Source: Caryophanon sp. (GTDB taxonomy: Bacteria; Bacillota; Bacilli; Bacillales_A; Planococcaceae). From it: a DNA stretch of 64,000 nucleotides. The stretch is taken from positions 1 to 64,000 of the forward strand of contig JAHAYH010000014.1 of NCBI GenBank assembly GCA_018384745.1, written 5' to 3'. Of the stretch, positions 20,396 through 30,400 are shown in pieces. Made by a program: the position numbers and the translations under genes. How positions within the stretch are numbered: position 1 is the first letter of the stretch; each line of letters starts with the position of its first letter. The notes beneath the pieces were generated by a model. The model saw nothing but the letters and a program-made list of their open reading frames with translations. It was not told the origin of the DNA and ran no database searches.

Positions 20396-20514
20396 AAGGA
20401 TCTCCAAATAAATAATTAAATAAGCCATCACCCGTAAGGGCAATGGCTCAATAGACCATAGAAGGGGGCGAAGCCCCCTATCAAAGTTTTAATAGTACGA
20501 GTAGGTTGTATAAC

Positions 20515-20835
20515 TCATAGTTGTACTCTTGGCATATCCTCAAGCTTGTAGCCCATAATCTGTAAGGTAGCCTCCAAGTTTCCTATATGCCTATAGGAGA
20601 TAATTAGAGGATCCTTATTGGTAAATTGGTCAATGGCTTGAATGAGTATTAGGGCCGGTATATATCCTCTGGAGTCCTTAGCATCAATCTTAGCTAATCT
20701 AGCGTAGTTCATACCTGTCTTAGGCTCCCCAACAACTACTACCCTCATACCATTAATGGTTAATGTGTGCAGTTCTCCACACTTCTGCCTTGGCACTCGG
20801 ATTAGTACAGGGGGTACTTTAGGTTTAGGGTTCAT
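20515..20835 (-). CDS. hypothetical protein
   Basis: 106-aa ORF coupled to RNAP2 gene. Confidence 0.5.
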   Translation of the reverse strand: MNPKPKVPPVLIRVPRQKCGELHTLTINGMRVVVVGEPKTGMNYARLAKIDAKDSRGYIPALILIQAIDQFTNKDPLIISYRHIGNLEATLQIMGYKLEDMPRVQL

Positions 20836-22058
20836 TAGCAGACTCCATATATTGATTCACGAATTTGCTGGCTTAAGTTATTAGACAGTTTCTTGTACTT
20901 AAACTTCTTGCCGGTAATCATGGATAGAATGTGATCCAGTAACGTAGAGTCAGCTAGATCTGCCAGGATGTTACGGTAGTGGTAGCGTAGGGCATCACCA
21001 TTGTTGCTATGTATGCGGAATGCATCATGTACGGTGAGAACCGGGAATGGTTTGAATTGAGTAATGTCCTCAATCATGGCTATAAGTTTTACTTTCAATT
21101 CTTTAGGAATAGATTGTGCAACTTCTTTATCCATGGTTTCAAACCATACTGGATCTACCAGACCGGTAGAGTAGTACATACCAAGTAGTGGTGACTTACA
21201 TTCAGTTACTGGAGAATCCATGAACTCAGTGAGCATCGCTTTACACTTCTTAAGTGTAGGAGCATGGTACGAGCATTTGCGTAGCAAGGTGCGAAGTACA
21301 TATGCGTCTACACTGTGAGTTACGTTGGCAGGTAATGAAATACCAGACTTACTTCCCATATTGACTTTATACGATGTCTTAAACTTATGATGGTTTAGTT
21401 CATCTACCTCAATACGAGTTTCTTCTGTTTGCATTACTTTTACTGCTACATCGAAACCATCAGGCATTTTCCAGTAGTGGCTAAGTGCCCATGGTTGCCA
21501 AGCATTCAGTAGAGTATTCAGTAGGCCAAAGGCTCCTGGAGCTGAACGCATAGCTGCTTCGTAGAATGCTTCAATAGCAGGGCCTTCTTCTCCAAAGATC
21601 TTTTTAGGTGTTGCCTTAGATCCGTAAAGTGAAGTCATTACCGCATCTTTAGCATCCTTACGGCTGATCTCTAAACCTTGTACCTGCCATTCACGAAGTA
21701 CCTTGTTCTGCTCTGCAGTTACTTCTGTGTACGCATCGTAGCGTTTAGGCTCTGGAGTAAGGTTTGTGATAATGGCTCCTTTGATACAGCCAGTGAGTGC
21801 AGATAATACTTGCATACCTGAACAGGTAGCATCTAAAGAGATTAAGTGACCAGTTGGCTTTCCAGCGCATACATCACGTAAAGCCATAACGGATTTGATG
21901 TACAGTACTTTATCTTCAGTAGCTTGGTCAGCCAGTTCTTCTAAATTGGCAAAGTTATCCTTCACCCATTTGATGCGATCTGCAAATACTTCTTTGTCTA
22001 GGCCATAGCAATTTGCAATATCCACGCATAGGTATTCAATACCGCTCATGTTATTCAT
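20835..22058 (-). CDS. RNA polymerase subunit 2 (N4 RNAP2-like, T7-family C-terminal part)
   Basis: LDATCSGMQVLSALTG (T7-type motif A), YGSKATPKK (motif B region), VLTVHDAFRIH (motif C). Confidence 0.88.
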   Translation of the reverse strand: MNNMSGIEYLCVDIANCYGLDKEVFADRIKWVKDNFANLEELADQATEDKVLYIKSVMALRDVCAGKPTGHLISLDATCSGMQVLSALTGCIKGAIITNLTPEPKRYDAYTEVTAEQNKVLREWQVQGLEISRKDAKDAVMTSLYGSKATPKKIFGEEGPAIEAFYEAAMRSAPGAFGLLNTLLNAWQPWALSHYWKMPDGFDVAVKVMQTEETRIEVDELNHHKFKTSYKVNMGSKSGISLPANVTHSVDAYVLRTLLRKCSYHAPTLKKCKAMLTEFMDSPVTECKSPLLGMYYSTGLVDPVWFETMDKEVAQSIPKELKVKLIAMIEDITQFKPFPVLTVHDAFRIHSNNGDALRYHYRNILADLADSTLLDHILSMITGKKFKYKKLSNNLSQQIRESIYGVC

Positions 22059-23974: not shown

Positions 23975-24244
23975 TTAAGTTATGTCCTGTTTGTATTGAT
24001 GGATAGGATCTATGCCAAGTAGGTACAAGGCGTAGTAATGTTCAAATGTAGGAAAGTCTACTAAGATCCAATTATCAATTGATTCTCGTAAAGGCATTAA
24101 GCCATCTTCGTCTAGTAACAAGAAGTGGAAATAGTATTGATGGAGCTCTTGAGCTTCTTCCCATCCACAATCTTCTGGTACACATGATTTGTCGCAGACT
24201 AATCCAAATATATTAGTTTTATTTAAAGAAGTTTTCTGGGACAT
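23975..24244 (-). CDS. hypothetical protein
   Basis: 89-aa ORF overlapping end of RNAP1 gene. Confidence 0.5.
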   Translation of the reverse strand: MSQKTSLNKTNIFGLVCDKSCVPEDCGWEEAQELHQYYFHFLLLDEDGLMPLRESIDNWILVDFPTFEHYYALYLLGIDPIHQYKQDIT

Positions 24245-25187
24245 CTACTTTCTCCTTATTACTAAGTTCAATCATGGCTTTTTTGAAACTTGCACCCATT
24301 GGATTTACATGATGGCCTTGGCTATAAATACGCCCACGCATGTCCACTTTGTTGCAGACATAGAATTTATTGCCTGCATCAAGCATCAGGTTGTAAACCA
24401 TAGCTGACAGTTCGCAGTGGATATACCAGTTGTACTCTTCCTGACGTAAAGCATCGTTAAGTTCCTTACCCTGTTTACCTTTCTCGATAAGTGAATCACG
24501 GATGTCCTCCATAGATTTCTTACGCTGTTCAGGTAGGCGTTCAAGGAACTCTTCATTGATACATAGAGGTATATGGTTCTGTCTGTTCAGTACAGCTAAA
24601 CAGATATCACCTTCATGATGTTTGTATGCTCCACCTAAGATCAAGGACTGACCTTTAAGGGATTCATACCCACTATCACGATTGGATTTAAGCTTCTTTG
24701 GTTTATCGATACTTGGTGGAATGTACATTCCTCTTTCCGCAATGAGGCGCTGCTCATTGTTAAGTACCATATTAGGGATAACGTGATACTGGCCTTTAGC
24801 ATAAAGAGGGGCAATGCCGTATAAGCCAATAGGTAACATGACAGCTAATAATTCAGCTGCCAGTGTGATACCTTCACGTGTATCTGCGAAGCCTAGCGTT
24901 TGACCTAATTGAGATGACATAGTGGCTAAGGTAGTAGTTCCCTTAATCAGGAGAACATCAATAAAGATCTTCTCCACAATGTCTTGTATGTCCATGCAAA
25001 GAACTGAGTCTTTACGCTGTTGTTTGGTTTTATAGGTGGCAGGCTCTTGAGCCCATTTGGTAATTAGGTCTATACCATCACCTATCATATGCAGAGTTGC
25101 TGGCTCTGCCATGAGTAATTCAAAGATGTAGTCTCTAGTAGATTTCTTGGAGAATACTTCTTCTAGATTTGCTTGAGTAAGTTCCAT
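24219..25187 (-). CDS. RNA polymerase subunit 1 (N4 RNAP1-like, T7-family N-terminal part)
   Basis: C-terminal NKVDMRGRIYSQGHHVNPMGASFKKAMIEL = DxxGR motif of T7-type RNAPs. Confidence 0.85.
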   Translation of the reverse strand: MELTQANLEEVFSKKSTRDYIFELLMAEPATLHMIGDGIDLITKWAQEPATYKTKQQRKDSVLCMDIQDIVEKIFIDVLLIKGTTTLATMSSQLGQTLGFADTREGITLAAELLAVMLPIGLYGIAPLYAKGQYHVIPNMVLNNEQRLIAERGMYIPPSIDKPKKLKSNRDSGYESLKGQSLILGGAYKHHEGDICLAVLNRQNHIPLCINEEFLERLPEQRKKSMEDIRDSLIEKGKQGKELNDALRQEEYNWYIHCELSAMVYNLMLDAGNKFYVCNKVDMRGRIYSQGHHVNPMGASFKKAMIELSNKEKVDVPENFFK

Positions 25188-27062: not shown

Positions 27063-27129
27063 AACAAACACCATATGAGAAGAGCAGGGAAACAGAACAA
27101 CAAGCGGAACAGGACAAGCCCGAACCACA

Positions 27130-27147
27130 TATTAGAGCGGAGCGAAA
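27130..27147 (-). promoter_or_regulatory. vRNAP-like early promoter element (copy 1)
   Basis: + strand TATTAGAGCGGAGCGAAA upstream of leftward gene. Confidence 0.45.
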
Positions 27148-27150
27148 CTG

Positions 27151-27453
27151 TTAGGTTGTTAAAGCAAGAATAGAGTTAATATAAGTATTATTAGCATAAG
27201 CAATAAATGACATATCACTCTTAGTTAATGTACGTTCAGATAATATTGAAGCTATTAACTCTTCATTATCTTCTAGTATATTTGCAGCGTTTCTGTTTAG
27301 TTTAGAGAACGATACAAGTAGTTTAAGTACTGTGAATGATGCATTAATAAATCCTTCATCATCTGGTTTAACCTTATAGAAACTATAATAAGCAGGAAGC
27401 CTATCTTTATTAACTTGGTTTAAACTGTGTATATTAAATTTAAATTTAGCCAT
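27151..27453 (-). CDS. hypothetical early protein
   Basis: 100-aa ORF. Confidence 0.5.
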   Translation of the reverse strand: MAKFKFNIHSLNQVNKDRLPAYYSFYKVKPDDEGFINASFTVLKLLVSFSKLNRNAANILEDNEELIASILSERTLTKSDMSFIAYANNTYINSILALTT

Positions 27454-27492
27454 ATTAATAACCGTACTGTGATTGGTAAAAAATTAAATGAC

Positions 27493-27516
27493 ATAGGATG
27501 CCCGAAGGCACCCTAT
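27493..27516 (-). terminator. UUCG-loop hairpin terminator
   Basis: Minus strand ATAGGGTGCC-TTCG-GGCATCCTAT after the 27526 stop. Confidence 0.65.
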
Positions 27517-27525
27517 ATCTGATTA

Positions 27526-27984
27526 TTATTCGTCTTCTGCTTCTTGAACAGGTTGACGACGTGCGCGAGGTTTTGCTTTTGCCGGAGCAGGTTCAGCAAC
27601 ACCATTACGTGGCACGAAGCTATTTGATCCGCGCTCTTTCGGTGTTGCGTCAACCACCTCAAGTTCCATGCAATCAAGCAATTGGTTTACATCGCCGCCT
27701 TGAGACCAAAGATCAAGGATCATGCTTTCCAATTCAGATGCTTCACGCAATGGTTTGTCTTTGCCATTCCACTTAAGAGTTTTCACTCCGTCTGCGGTAT
27801 GGAATTTGATTTTCAAATAAGCTTGTGCTTGGAAGCGCTCATCCTGCTCCTGTTGCTGTTCAGGCTGGAACCCGAAGCCTTGCTGTTGTTGGCCATAAGG
27901 TGCAGCCGGAGCTTGACGACCAAATGAACGAGTGTTTTGGCCAGCAAACGGATTAACAAAGCCTTGTTGGTTACGAGTAGTCAT
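27526..27984 (-). CDS. hypothetical early protein, Q-rich N-terminus and basic tail
   Basis: 152-aa ORF downstream of promoter-like element at 28025. Confidence 0.6.
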   Translation of the reverse strand: MTTRNQQGFVNPFAGQNTRSFGRQAPAAPYGQQQQGFGFQPEQQQEQDERFQAQAYLKIKFHTADGVKTLKWNGKDKPLREASELESMILDLWSQGGDVNQLLDCMELEVVDATPKERGSNSFVPRNGVAEPAPAKAKPRARRQPVQEAEDE

Positions 27985-28024
27985 GGTGATATACCTTTTA
28001 AAAATTGAAGTTTGGATTATTCCG

Positions 28025-28042
28025 CATTGGAGCGGAGCGACA
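28025..28042 (-). promoter_or_regulatory. vRNAP-like early promoter element (copy 2)
   Basis: + strand CATTGGAGCGGAGCGACA. Confidence 0.5.
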
Positions 28043-28113
28043 AGAAAAGAAGAGCTACCGAACAGGAAAATACTACCGAGCCCCGAGCGAAGCGAGCGTG
28101 TATAAAAAACTAA

Positions 28114-28129
28114 AACTCCCGAAGGAGTT
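28114..28129 (-). terminator. UUCG-loop hairpin terminator
   Basis: Minus strand AACTCC-TTCG-GGAGTT after the 28136 gene. Confidence 0.65.
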
Positions 28130-28135
28130 AATAGT

Positions 28136-28375
28136 TTAGATACCCCAAGGGTTAGTAAGGATAGTTACGTAGGTGAATCCTTTGTAGTTGTAATTCACTT
28201 CAGCAACACACATCTCTATAGCAAGTTTGGATATAACATCTGGATCTTGCTTAAATAGTACGTTATCCGGTATTTCCACATATAAGCATCCATTTACATT
28301 AATGGCTTTAAGGTTAGTATTACCTACTGCCAATAGGCCATGCATGTTTGGTAGATTAGATATATTTGTGTGCAT
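28136..28375 (-). CDS. hypothetical early protein
   Basis: 79-aa ORF flanked by promoter-like element and terminator. Confidence 0.5.
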   Translation of the reverse strand: MHTNISNLPNMHGLLAVGNTNLKAINVNGCLYVEIPDNVLFKQDPDVISKLAIEMCVAEVNYNYKGFTYVTILTNPWGI

Positions 28376-28399
28376 AGTAATGCCTACTAATTAAGCTCA

Positions 28400-28417
28400 C
28401 ATTGGAGCGGAGCGACA
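28400..28417 (-). promoter_or_regulatory. vRNAP-like early promoter element (copy 3)
   Basis: + strand CATTGGAGCGGAGCGACA, identical to copy 2. Confidence 0.5.
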
Positions 28418-28512
28418 GCATTGTTTGGAGGTATAAATAAGCTTAATAAGCTTGTAAGTAGTGCAGGTAAGAATGCTAAGTATCAGTATAAATAGCATTC
28501 CAGTTTTAGATG

Positions 28513-28737
28513 TTATGGTTCAGGTTGATAGTGTTGTATGAGGCCACTAACTATCTGCTCTTCAAGTTCATAACTTTCAAAGCCGAAACCTTCTAACATT
28601 TCAGTAAGTGATTCAACGTGTAAGCTGAATTTATCCGTATCTTCGATACATATATCAGCTACTGAATCAGGCAATTTAGTGAGGATATCTCGTAGGTGTT
28701 CTGGCATTTCTACCAGCTTCTTAAGTGCTTCAGACAT
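28513..28737 (-). CDS. hypothetical early protein
   Basis: 74-aa ORF. Confidence 0.5.
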   Translation of the reverse strand: MSEALKKLVEMPEHLRDILTKLPDSVADICIEDTDKFSLHVESLTEMLEGFGFESYELEEQIVSGLIQHYQPEP

Positions 28738-29012
28738 TAGTAAACTCCTAGTGATTTACACAATTTAATAAGTAAGTGCATGCGTGATACACGGACGTGT
28801 CCAATCAGTTCACCAAGGTAAACAGTTTGTAAAACGTCCAGTTGATTAGTGTGTGACAAGTGATAAATAGCTTGGTCACGTAGTGCTAAGTTACCTGCTA
28901 AGTGCAGGTATTTAATAAGATTAAGATGCTCTACATAGGTAGGAACATAGGGAATATTTCGAGGGTATAGGTACATTACAATGTATTCCTTTTGTAATTT
29001 ATGCATTGACAA
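28737..29012 (-). CDS. hypothetical early protein
   Basis: 91-aa ORF coupled to the next gene. Confidence 0.5.
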   Translation of the reverse strand: MSMHKLQKEYIVMYLYPRNIPYVPTYVEHLNLIKYLHLAGNLALRDQAIYHLSHTNQLDVLQTVYLGELIGHVRVSRMHLLIKLCKSLGVY

Positions 29013-29142
29013 GGTATTGACAACAACCTACGATGCATCGCAACAGGGGTCATATAATGACTAGATTAATACTTAGGAATAACTAATAAATACTATAAGT
29101 ATTATATAAAGTATAAGTATGTATATCCCCAAGTTGTCACCA

Positions 29143-29158
29143 GTGTTCAGGAGAACAC
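29143..29158. promoter_or_regulatory. hairpin, possible early promoter
   Basis: GTGTTC-AGGA-GAACAC perfect 6-bp stem upstream of the 29012 gene. Confidence 0.35.
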
Positions 29159-29191
29159 ACCATAAATAAAAGGAGCATATAGCTCCTTATT

Positions 29192-29383
29192 TTATTCATA
29201 GCATAAATATGTAAGTAGACATCCTAGTCCGAAGAACAGTACAGCTTTAGCAATATAGATCTCTCGATTAATCACGTTGTAGTAATGATCAATCTCCATA
29301 GTTGTCACAAAGTTAATGGCTAATGCAATCATAGAAATGAATAGGATGAGTTGTAAGTTAGATTTGTTCATAGTTGTCACCAA
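29192..29383 (-). CDS. small membrane protein
   Basis: 63-aa ORF, two hydrophobic segments. Confidence 0.5.
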   Translation of the reverse strand: MVTTMNKSNLQLILFISMIALAINFVTTMEIDHYYNVINREIYIAKAVLFFGLGCLLTYLCYE

Positions 29384-29497
29384 AGTAAGAGTAAATAAGG
29401 TAAATGTTAGAGTTAAGATAATTGGAAATAAACTACTAAGTTCTAACCTCCTGTACTGTACTTCCCTATAGAGTTTCCAGTAGATGAATGATCTTCA

Positions 29498-29534
29498 TAT
29501 TAGAACGGAGTGACACCTACCTCACTACGTGAGG
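29498..29534 (-). promoter_or_regulatory. degenerate vRNAP-like element (copy 4) plus 6-bp stem/3-nt loop hairpin
   Basis: + strand TATTAGAACGGAGTGACA then CCTCAC-TAC-GTGAGG. Confidence 0.45.
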
Positions 29535-29575
29535 GTACTGTACTTATAACTGTAGTAAGTATCCAATACTGTGAC

Positions 29576-29619
29576 CTGTGTAATCTGTGTAATGTGTAAG
29601 ATGTGTAGAATGTGTAAGC
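29576..29619. repeat. about 9-bp tandem microrepeat, 5 imperfect units
   Basis: CTGTGTAATCTGTGTAATGTGTAAGATGTGTAGAATGTGTAAG. Confidence 0.7.
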
Positions 29620-29627
29620 ATTAATAA

Positions 29628-29643
29628 ACCTCCCGAAGGAGGT
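29628..29643 (-). terminator. UUCG-loop hairpin terminator
   Basis: Minus strand ACCTCC-TTCG-GGAGGT after the 29649 stop. Confidence 0.65.
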
Positions 29644-29648
29644 ATTTA

Positions 29649-29780
29649 TTAGTTGTTGAGTGCTTGGATGCATTCATCTAGATCTTTCTGGATTGCTGCA
29701 GCTAATTCGTTATCACCATTCTTGATTGCATTATCAAGCATTTGTTCAAGTTGGTATTTATCTTCAAGTAGGTAGATCAT
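29649..29780 (-). CDS. hypothetical early protein (43 aa)
   Basis: MIYLLEDKYQLEQMLDNAIKNGDNELAAAIQKDLDECIQALNN*. Confidence 0.5.
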   Translation of the reverse strand: MIYLLEDKYQLEQMLDNAIKNGDNELAAAIQKDLDECIQALNN

Positions 29781-29790
29781 GATTTATTCC

Positions 29791-29931
29791 TTATTTGATG
29801 CGTTTAGCTTTAGAGATGCGGTAGTCGATAATCTTGGAATCTACTTTAGTCATTGTGATTAGGTATGCATATTTAACTAGGTTGAAGCAGATCTTTGGTA
29901 AGCATTTAGCGATGATGATTAAATCTTTCAT
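29791..29931 (-). CDS. hypothetical early protein (46 aa)
   Basis: MKDLIIIAKCLPKICFNLVKYAYLITMTKVDSKIIDYRISKAKRIK*. Confidence 0.45.
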   Translation of the reverse strand: MKDLIIIAKCLPKICFNLVKYAYLITMTKVDSKIIDYRISKAKRIK

Positions 29932-29958
29932 GGTTTATTCCTTAAGTATGAGAGGATG

Positions 29959-29974
29959 CCCACCCGAAGGTGGG
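29959..29974 (-). terminator. UUCG-loop hairpin terminator
   Basis: Minus strand CCCACC-TTCG-GGTGGG after the 29982 stop. Confidence 0.65.
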
Positions 29975-29981
29975 ACAGGTA

Positions 29982-30275
29982 TTAGAAGTTTATGCCTAGC
30001 TCTTCTGCTTGCTTGTTGTAGTCAGCCATAAGTTGATTATGGGTGATGGCATCAGCAATGGTCACTTGTTCACGATATCGTTCAGCTTTATCAGCTAAGA
30101 TACCGGTAGTATGCTCTACTAATCGTGCAGCATTATTGACAGCATTAAGCGAAGAGATGGCAGTACCAAGGGTCACATTCTTAAGGTCAGAGAATGCAAC
30201 TTGTTGGGTAGTAATAGCAGCCTTAACTTGAGGTTTAACAGGTGCTTGAGTTTGTTTTGCAGTAGTCATGGTCAT
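29982..30275 (-). CDS. hypothetical first leftward early protein
   Basis: 97-aa ORF downstream of hairpin promoter-like element. Confidence 0.55.
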   Translation of the reverse strand: MTMTTAKQTQAPVKPQVKAAITTQQVAFSDLKNVTLGTAISSLNAVNNAARLVEHTTGILADKAERYREQVTIADAITHNQLMADYNKQAEELGINF

Positions 30276-30299
30276 AGTCCTATGTTGTTAAATGATCCA

Positions 30300-30317
30300 T
30301 ATTAAAGCGGAAGCGCT
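30300..30317 (-). promoter_or_regulatory. vRNAP-like early promoter hairpin (copy 5)
   Basis: + strand TATTAAAGCGGAAGCGCTT: AAGCG-GAAG-CGCTT stem-loop. Confidence 0.55.
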
Positions 30318-30400
30318 TGTGTAAATAAGGATTGTTAATGTAAGTGGACATAGGGGGGGGTCTATTTACTTGGGGGGTGTCCCCAACACCTAAGCCCTAC

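Follow-up and report, generated by a model that had tools for sequence, protein, structure and literature searches.

How the leftward early genes of an N4-like phage are first transcribed is the question raised by the window analysed here, which comprises bases 1-64000 of contig C51 (75,165 bp) in a 2.15-Mb assembly. The contig belongs to an N4-like (Schitoviridae) phage that encodes a 3718-aa virion RNA polymerase (vRNAP), both RNAPII subunits, a DNA polymerase, a primase, a portal protein, and a terminase, and its nearest named relative by the RNAPII large subunit is Acinetobacter phage Presley (50%). Five elements built around a GCGGAGC core are located on the + strand, all within the early region (27.1-30.3 kb) and 23-125 nt upstream of leftward genes, and the rest of the contig has none. 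These elements are proposed to be early promoters for the vRNAP of this phage, a reading to which we assign a probability of about 0.75. It is based on a common sequence family, strand, and place, on a fixed spacing, on recurrence before orthologous genes, and on the modelled fold of the polymerase, from which we infer recognition, extrusion of a hairpin, and the start site.

A first-pass annotation of this DNA had interpreted the elements as vRNAP promoters, an interpretation that is supported by the present analysis, and all five of the sequences that it quoted are present in the window as given. Beyond the core, the five elements have in common a C exactly 10 nt 5' of the loop, T-T at fixed positions, and an A-R-C / G-Y frame. 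The loop is GGA in four copies and GGAA in one, and in the 29496 element the second pair is altered on both sides from G-C to A-T. The placement of every copy just upstream of a minus-strand start holds for four of them (23-66 nt), whereas the 29496 copy is 125 nt away from its start codon. The clear 5-bp stem attributed to the copy at 30300 (30298 when counted from its C) is likewise correct in part. This is the sole copy that is stable in folding, but in the common register it reads GC-GGAA-GC with a four-base GNNA loop, and the 5-bp AAGCG/CGCTT stem, which extends to 30318, is an alternative fold incompatible with that register. A sixth GAGCGAAGCGA / GAGCGAAGCGAGC copy, absent from the earlier list, is found on the + strand at 28085-28097; it probably lies outside the element family because the C-N10 initiator is missing. 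A perfect 6-bp stem, CCTCAC-TAC-GTGAGG, is also present at 29520-29534; it is six bases away from the 29496 element, upstream with respect to initiation.

Elements of the same type were found when the template strands upstream of RNAPII were scanned in N4 and in the phages of the window's clade. The six relatives, namely Presley, At2, nACB1, and XC38 (known Acinetobacter phages among them) and the IMG/VR contigs L018 and L034, contain 18 such elements (At2, 4; nACB1, 3; XC38, 3; L018, 2; L034, 4; Presley, 2), all of which follow the C-N10-loop plan, lie on the template strand, and precede the RNAPII genes. Past RNAPII, the long stretches scanned gave isolated decoy matches only, one of them inside the vRNAP gene. 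When the 23 elements (five from the window and 18 from relatives), all on the template strand, were aligned at the loop, C at index 0 and A at index 8 were invariant. Furthermore, T occurs at index 4 in 22 of 23 elements versus 5 of 18 decoys (other sites that fit the search pattern), and index -1 is C in 19 of 23 versus 2 of 18. Both positions lay outside the search pattern (P = 6e-6 each), although these P values overstate independence because the sample includes orthologous copies. The loops of the relatives are mostly GTA, with a pyrimidine centre in place of the purine centre of the N4-type definition. The suggestion that degenerate stems reflect a divergent recognition mode holds up in six related phages. 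No description of an early promoter for the Presley/XC38/At2 clade was found in the literature searched, the early region gave zero blastn matches to phage records, and exact CAYATTRGAGCGGAGC occurs in five stretches of viral contigs, with no such element family in their extended contexts.

Orthologous genes in different phages are preceded by elements. Window gene 1 and Presley gp1 share 46% identity, Presley gp1 is in turn similar to the first genes of At2, XC38, and L034, and in each of these five phages an element lies within about 50 nt upstream of gene 1. The gene-1 element has a four-base loop in both the window (GGAA) and Presley (GTGA), at the same 10-nt distance. A Drc-family gene is preceded by an element in seven phages, the homology being weak for the window gene. 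Weak phrog_6271 matches were also obtained for the genes behind the corresponding elements in Presley, At2, nACB1, and L034, and the family is matched by LUZ7 gp14 (5e-37) and CB4 gp021 (1e-39). The Drc family profile against the window protein alone was not significant (E=0.23), and the link between the window gene and Drc is drawn from the shared weak phrog_6271 matches; no link of N4 gp2 to the phrog_6271 family was found. LUZ7 gp14 is Drc, a single-stranded DNA-binding transcription factor. The drc gene of LUZ7 has the hairpin TTGCCATTACACAGGC-GTA-GCCTG with a full 5-bp stem 59 nt upstream and the same TTGCC start region, and an N4-type promoter is annotated at the drc of CB4; therefore, the window-type element occupies the place of the canonical hairpin promoters in other subclades.

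The sequence pattern was also compared with chance expectation. GCGGAGCG occurs three times in the window, each time in a listed copy, versus 0.31 expected, and at least three occurrences were reached in 1 of 100 shuffles. The 15-mer with three mismatches is by itself weakly above chance (5 found versus 2.55 expected). Of six CNNNTTNNARCGGAGYG matches in the 2.15-Mb assembly, four are the elements described here, all on the + strand within 2.4 kb, and only two lie outside contig C51; a control pattern gave zero matches. The regular expression C-N7-A-(GCG[GT]AGC or ACG[GT]AGT or four-base-loop forms) matched ten sites over 75 kb versus about 3 in Markov controls. Five of these are the reported elements (+ strand, 27.1-30.3 kb), and the other five are scattered, on the opposite strand, and have different flanks. 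The enrichment is therefore modest for the core alone and strong when the flanks are included. A similar frequency elsewhere in the genome had been named as evidence against promoters; the full pattern clusters in the early region, which favours the promoter idea. A weight matrix built only from the 18 elements of the other phages was then used to score both strands of the whole contig, and the 30298, 28023, and 27128 elements ranked first (24.7), second (15.6), and third (14.1), with 29496 at 18th and 28398 at 29th. The best score in 20 simulated third-order Markov genomes was 18.0, which is below 24.7, but the test is not fully blind because the relatives' elements were picked after the window motif was known. 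An earlier matrix with three-base loops only placed the loops at 28034, 27139, 28409, and 29507 at ranks 1, 3, 5, and 18.

In terms of structure, every one of the 23 elements keeps the two inner pairs (a criterion built into the search), and the third pair is A.G in 14, A-T in seven, and A.A in two. The inverted-repeat stem of 5-7 bp is missing in four of the five window copies, which have 2 bp in register. Because this stem of the N4 examples is absent, the elements represent a variant rather than canonical N4 promoters, to which they are very probably homologous. Longer stems are kept in some members, such as the 5-bp stems of nACB1 1781, L034 4143, and L018 169. Two or more G-C pairs closing a GNA or GNNA loop give a DNA hairpin of extraordinary stability, with a melting temperature of 78 °C for GCGAAGC (PMC4686876), and standard folding energies fail to reproduce this experimental mini-hairpin stability. 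In N4 extrusion studies, a C:G closing pair plus the loop G and A were required (PMC4496689). Tandem G.A is present in four window copies, and stacked A.G pairs could, by structural reasoning, possibly continue the mini-hairpin. When a tandem sheared G.A explanation was tested, G.A did not exceed shuffled arms with column composition kept. GAACGAAGTGA motifs with tandem G.A geometry plus further pairing are present on the template strand in the early regions of two more distant N4-like contigs (L031:1950 and L065:5989). No C-GNA-G hairpin with at least four pairs emerged from a long-stem (N4-like) search of the template strand in the window's early region, from the RNAPII small-subunit gene to gene 1. 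Class I GTAC-GGA-GTAC hairpins of At2, nACB1, XC38, and L034 (6-7 bp; L012:826, L013:112, L015:717, L034:2896), were considered as the real promoters but set aside: they have no C at a fixed distance, are located 176-314 nt upstream of an early gene, were not found in the window or Presley, and may be terminators.

The enzyme expected to read these sites is encoded in the window. An AlphaFold model of its polymerase domain (pLDDT 82, pTM 0.81) has the N4 mini-vRNAP fold, and a fold search gave 2PO4 as the best PDB match (E=2.7e-28), followed by the N4 P1/P2 promoter complexes (~1e-26 to 1e-28), whereas no significant polymerase match in PDB came from a sequence-profile search with the vRNAP. 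The catalytic motifs align with those of N4, and the specificity loop contains an insertion of ~28 residues versus N4, modelled as a long beta-hairpin. The shifted spacing and the shorter hairpin are in line with a conserved enzyme whose promoter-reading parts have changed.

The most likely mechanism of initiation is as follows. The polymerase would enter the cell with the phage DNA, the template strand of which carries C, a 10-nt A/T-rich spacer ending in A-G-C, a GNA loop (GNNA at gene 1), and then G-C-G. This strand would fold locally into a very stable GC-GNA-GC mini-hairpin, extruded most likely by negative supercoiling, as in N4. The stem would comprise two Watson-Crick pairs only, mostly with A.G at the third position (14/23), further pairing not being conserved. 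The polymerase would then bind the hairpin and start RNA leftward with G opposite the C located 10 nt from the loop, and each element together with the terminator behind its gene would form a small early transcription unit. That all phages of this one N4-like clade start infection from about the smallest stable DNA hairpin known, with two G-C pairs under a GNA or GNNA loop, extended by A.G (tandem G.A in the window) and read by a vRNAP whose promoter contacts have diverged from those of N4, is a broader proposal to which we would give even odds.

Several observations weigh against these elements being vRNAP promoters of the hairpin type. Pairing beyond the two inner pairs does not clearly exceed that of shuffled arms, with P=0.15 (pairs 3-4), 0.036 (3-5), and 0.21 (3-7), and under standard DNA parameters the 30298 copy alone is stably folded, the other four giving no stable hairpin of the proposed kind; the same folding gives stems of 5.2-6.7 kcal/mol for N4 P2 and P3. 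For the N4 hairpin-contacting residues K114, R119, W129, D901, and R904, no conservation is visible in the Acinetobacter group in a MAFFT alignment that is weak in those segments. In addition, start sites in this clade are deduced from sequence only, and several early genes have no element upstream. The lack of conserved outer pairing, the folding result, the apparent non-conservation of the contact residues, and the longer specificity loop would all suit vRNAP promoters read as linear or duplex sequence, which would have lost the hairpin while retaining the GCGNAGC core as a plain sequence. This appears unlikely, since the two inner pairs are retained throughout (with the search constraint noted above), the 29496 element changes both sides of one pair, and the loops vary only within the GNA/GNNA class of stable mini-hairpins, including the longer loop that the window and Presley have at gene 1; the members with 5-bp stems also argue against it.

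The proximity of the elements to the RNAPII and drc genes could instead indicate that they serve the phage RNAPII as middle promoters or are bound by its cofactor Drc, which has been described and is reported to interact with RNAP2 during the switch from early to middle transcription (PMC7845610). Such a role is improbable, as the elements stop before the RNAPII genes in every relative scanned, with the middle genes beyond, and as RNAPII would need to drive its own first synthesis. Moreover, the elements are GC-cored and confined to the early region, whereas the RNAPII promoters of N4 have been described as rich in A and T from -7 to +2 (PMC4496689). Repeated, oriented sites close to gene starts might also be double-stranded operators or leader RNA elements unrelated to initiation, yet this is highly improbable: a C lies at a constant distance of 10 nt, N4 and LUZ7 offer parallels at corresponding genes, and separate terminators adjoin the elements. 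Least credible is a chance or widespread GAGCGNAGCGA repeat, with the early genes driven by host sigma-70 promoters. GAGCGAAGCGA strings do occur elsewhere in the assembly, three of them within ~110 bp on the host contig C21, and one weak sigma-70 match overlaps 28023; however, the full pattern with flanks and spacing has only the two assembly matches outside contig C51, an equal density of full-pattern matches elsewhere was not seen, sigma-70-like -35/-10 sites are fewer than in shuffles (9 versus 14.8 in the region), and window elements occupy matrix ranks 1-3.

The layout of the region is given in Table 1. Leftward early genes begin at ~30.3 kb, and the large terminase is encoded rightward from 31.9 kb; from this opposed arrangement and the gene order of N4, an N4-type genome end is probably located near 30.4 kb in a permuted contig, and the early region would therefore be the leading end, as in N4. 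Two G-runs lie at 30354-30400, between gene 1 and the terminase and near the presumed genome end. The early region is divided into short units by terminator-like hairpins at 29643, 29188, 28129, and 27519. A perfect 7-bp hairpin, AGGGGGC-GAA-GCCCCCT, is present at 20463-20479 behind the RNAPII large subunit region, and in Presley a terminator is annotated directly after the RNAPII large subunit.

Table 1. Proposed early promoter elements, genes, and terminator-like hairpins of the window.
Feature	Coordinates	Strand	Remarks
Element P1, C(30298) CATATTAAAGC-GGAA-GC	30298..30314	- (hairpin/template strand +)	leader 23 nt to gene 1 ATG 30275
Element CATATTAGAAC-GGA-GTGA	29496..29513	-	leader 125 nt to ATG 29371
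Element CACATTGGAGC-GGA-GCGA	28398..28415	-	leader 23 nt to ATG 28375
Element CGCATTGGAGC-GGA-GCGA	28023..28040	-	leader 39 nt to ATG 27984 (Drc-family gene)
Element CATATTAGAGC-GGA-GCGA	27128..27145	-	leader 66 nt to ATG 27062
Early gene 1, 97 aa	29982..30275	-	phrog_32994; orthologue of Presley gp1 and of At2, XC38, L034 gene 1
Small early gene, 63 aa from TTG	29192..29383	-	downstream of 29496 element; ATG at 29371
Small early gene, 79 aa	28136..28375	-	downstream of 28398 element
Early gene behind 28023 element	27526..27984	-	weak phrog_6271 match, E=0.0034 (family of LUZ7 gp14, Drc)
Early gene, 84 aa	26808..27062	-	downstream of 27128 element
RNAPII small subunit, N4 gp15-like	24219..25187	-	51% identity to Presley; marks early-region end
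RNAPII large subunit, N4 gp16-like	20835..22058	-	phrog_2051
Virion RNA polymerase, 3718 aa	46288..57444	+	phrog_2206 match; polymerase domain ~residues 1140-2310
Intrinsic terminator-like hairpin	29628..29643	-	between early units
Intrinsic terminator-like hairpin	29170..29188	-	after 29192-29383 gene
Intrinsic terminator-like hairpin	28114..28129	-	after 28136-28375 gene
Intrinsic terminator-like hairpin	27490..27519	-	after 27526-27984 gene

The N4 vRNAP promoters are among the few proven regulatory DNA hairpins extruded from the double helix, and knowledge of such promoters comes almost wholly from three sites in one phage. A clade with a two-base-pair mini-hairpin at another start distance would provide a natural test of the minimal structure needed. 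A rule combining C, the clade-specific spacing of 9, 10, or 11 nt, and a GNA/GNNA mini-hairpin could also be useful for annotation where searches for long stems fail.

Among known systems, the closest counterparts are the N4 promoters P1-P3, used by the vRNAP gp50. In N4, the scan used for the window clade picked up hairpins at 97, 566, and 4555; they precede gp1, gp2, and the RNAPII genes, which is where P1, P2, and P3 are expected (PMC4496689). P1-P3 likewise have a template-strand GCGNAGC, a GNA loop with a C:G closing pair, and a C a constant short distance 5' of the loop, and they precede the first genes at the leading end of the genome in a phage with the N4-type vRNAP fold. The agreement in core and orientation that had been claimed for the window elements is supported, and the early location and the C at a constant distance match N4 as well. 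In contrast, the N4 stems are perfect over 5-7 bp and the nearest C is 9 nt before the loop, while the window clade has two base pairs with a frequent A.G third pair, a spacing of 10, and GNNA allowed at gene 1, and the window itself has more copies (five versus P1-P3). The C, present in all elements, is one nucleotide further away than in N4 (N4-type: +1 C, loop centre -11). The predicted hairpin promoters of LUZ7/LIT1 (PMC3715699) follow the same plan, with a CC start region and GTA loops at the LUZ7 sites L088:798 and L088:3702, the latter upstream of drc, but have stems of 4-5 bp and CC exactly 11 nt before the GTA loop. The distance from C to the loop is therefore 9 nt in N4, 10 nt in the window clade, and 11 nt in LUZ7, which suggests a clade-specific spacing rule for N4-like promoters. 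One of the predicted hairpin promoters of CB1/CB3/CB4 (PMC6027278) is located directly upstream of CB4 drc, although these have the template-strand core GC-TAT-GC and long stems. Finally, the stable DNA mini-hairpins d(GCGNAGC) and d(GCGNNAGC) of Hirao and co-workers (PMC4686876) correspond exactly to the window core in both loop lengths, as a motif known from physical chemistry and not as a promoter.

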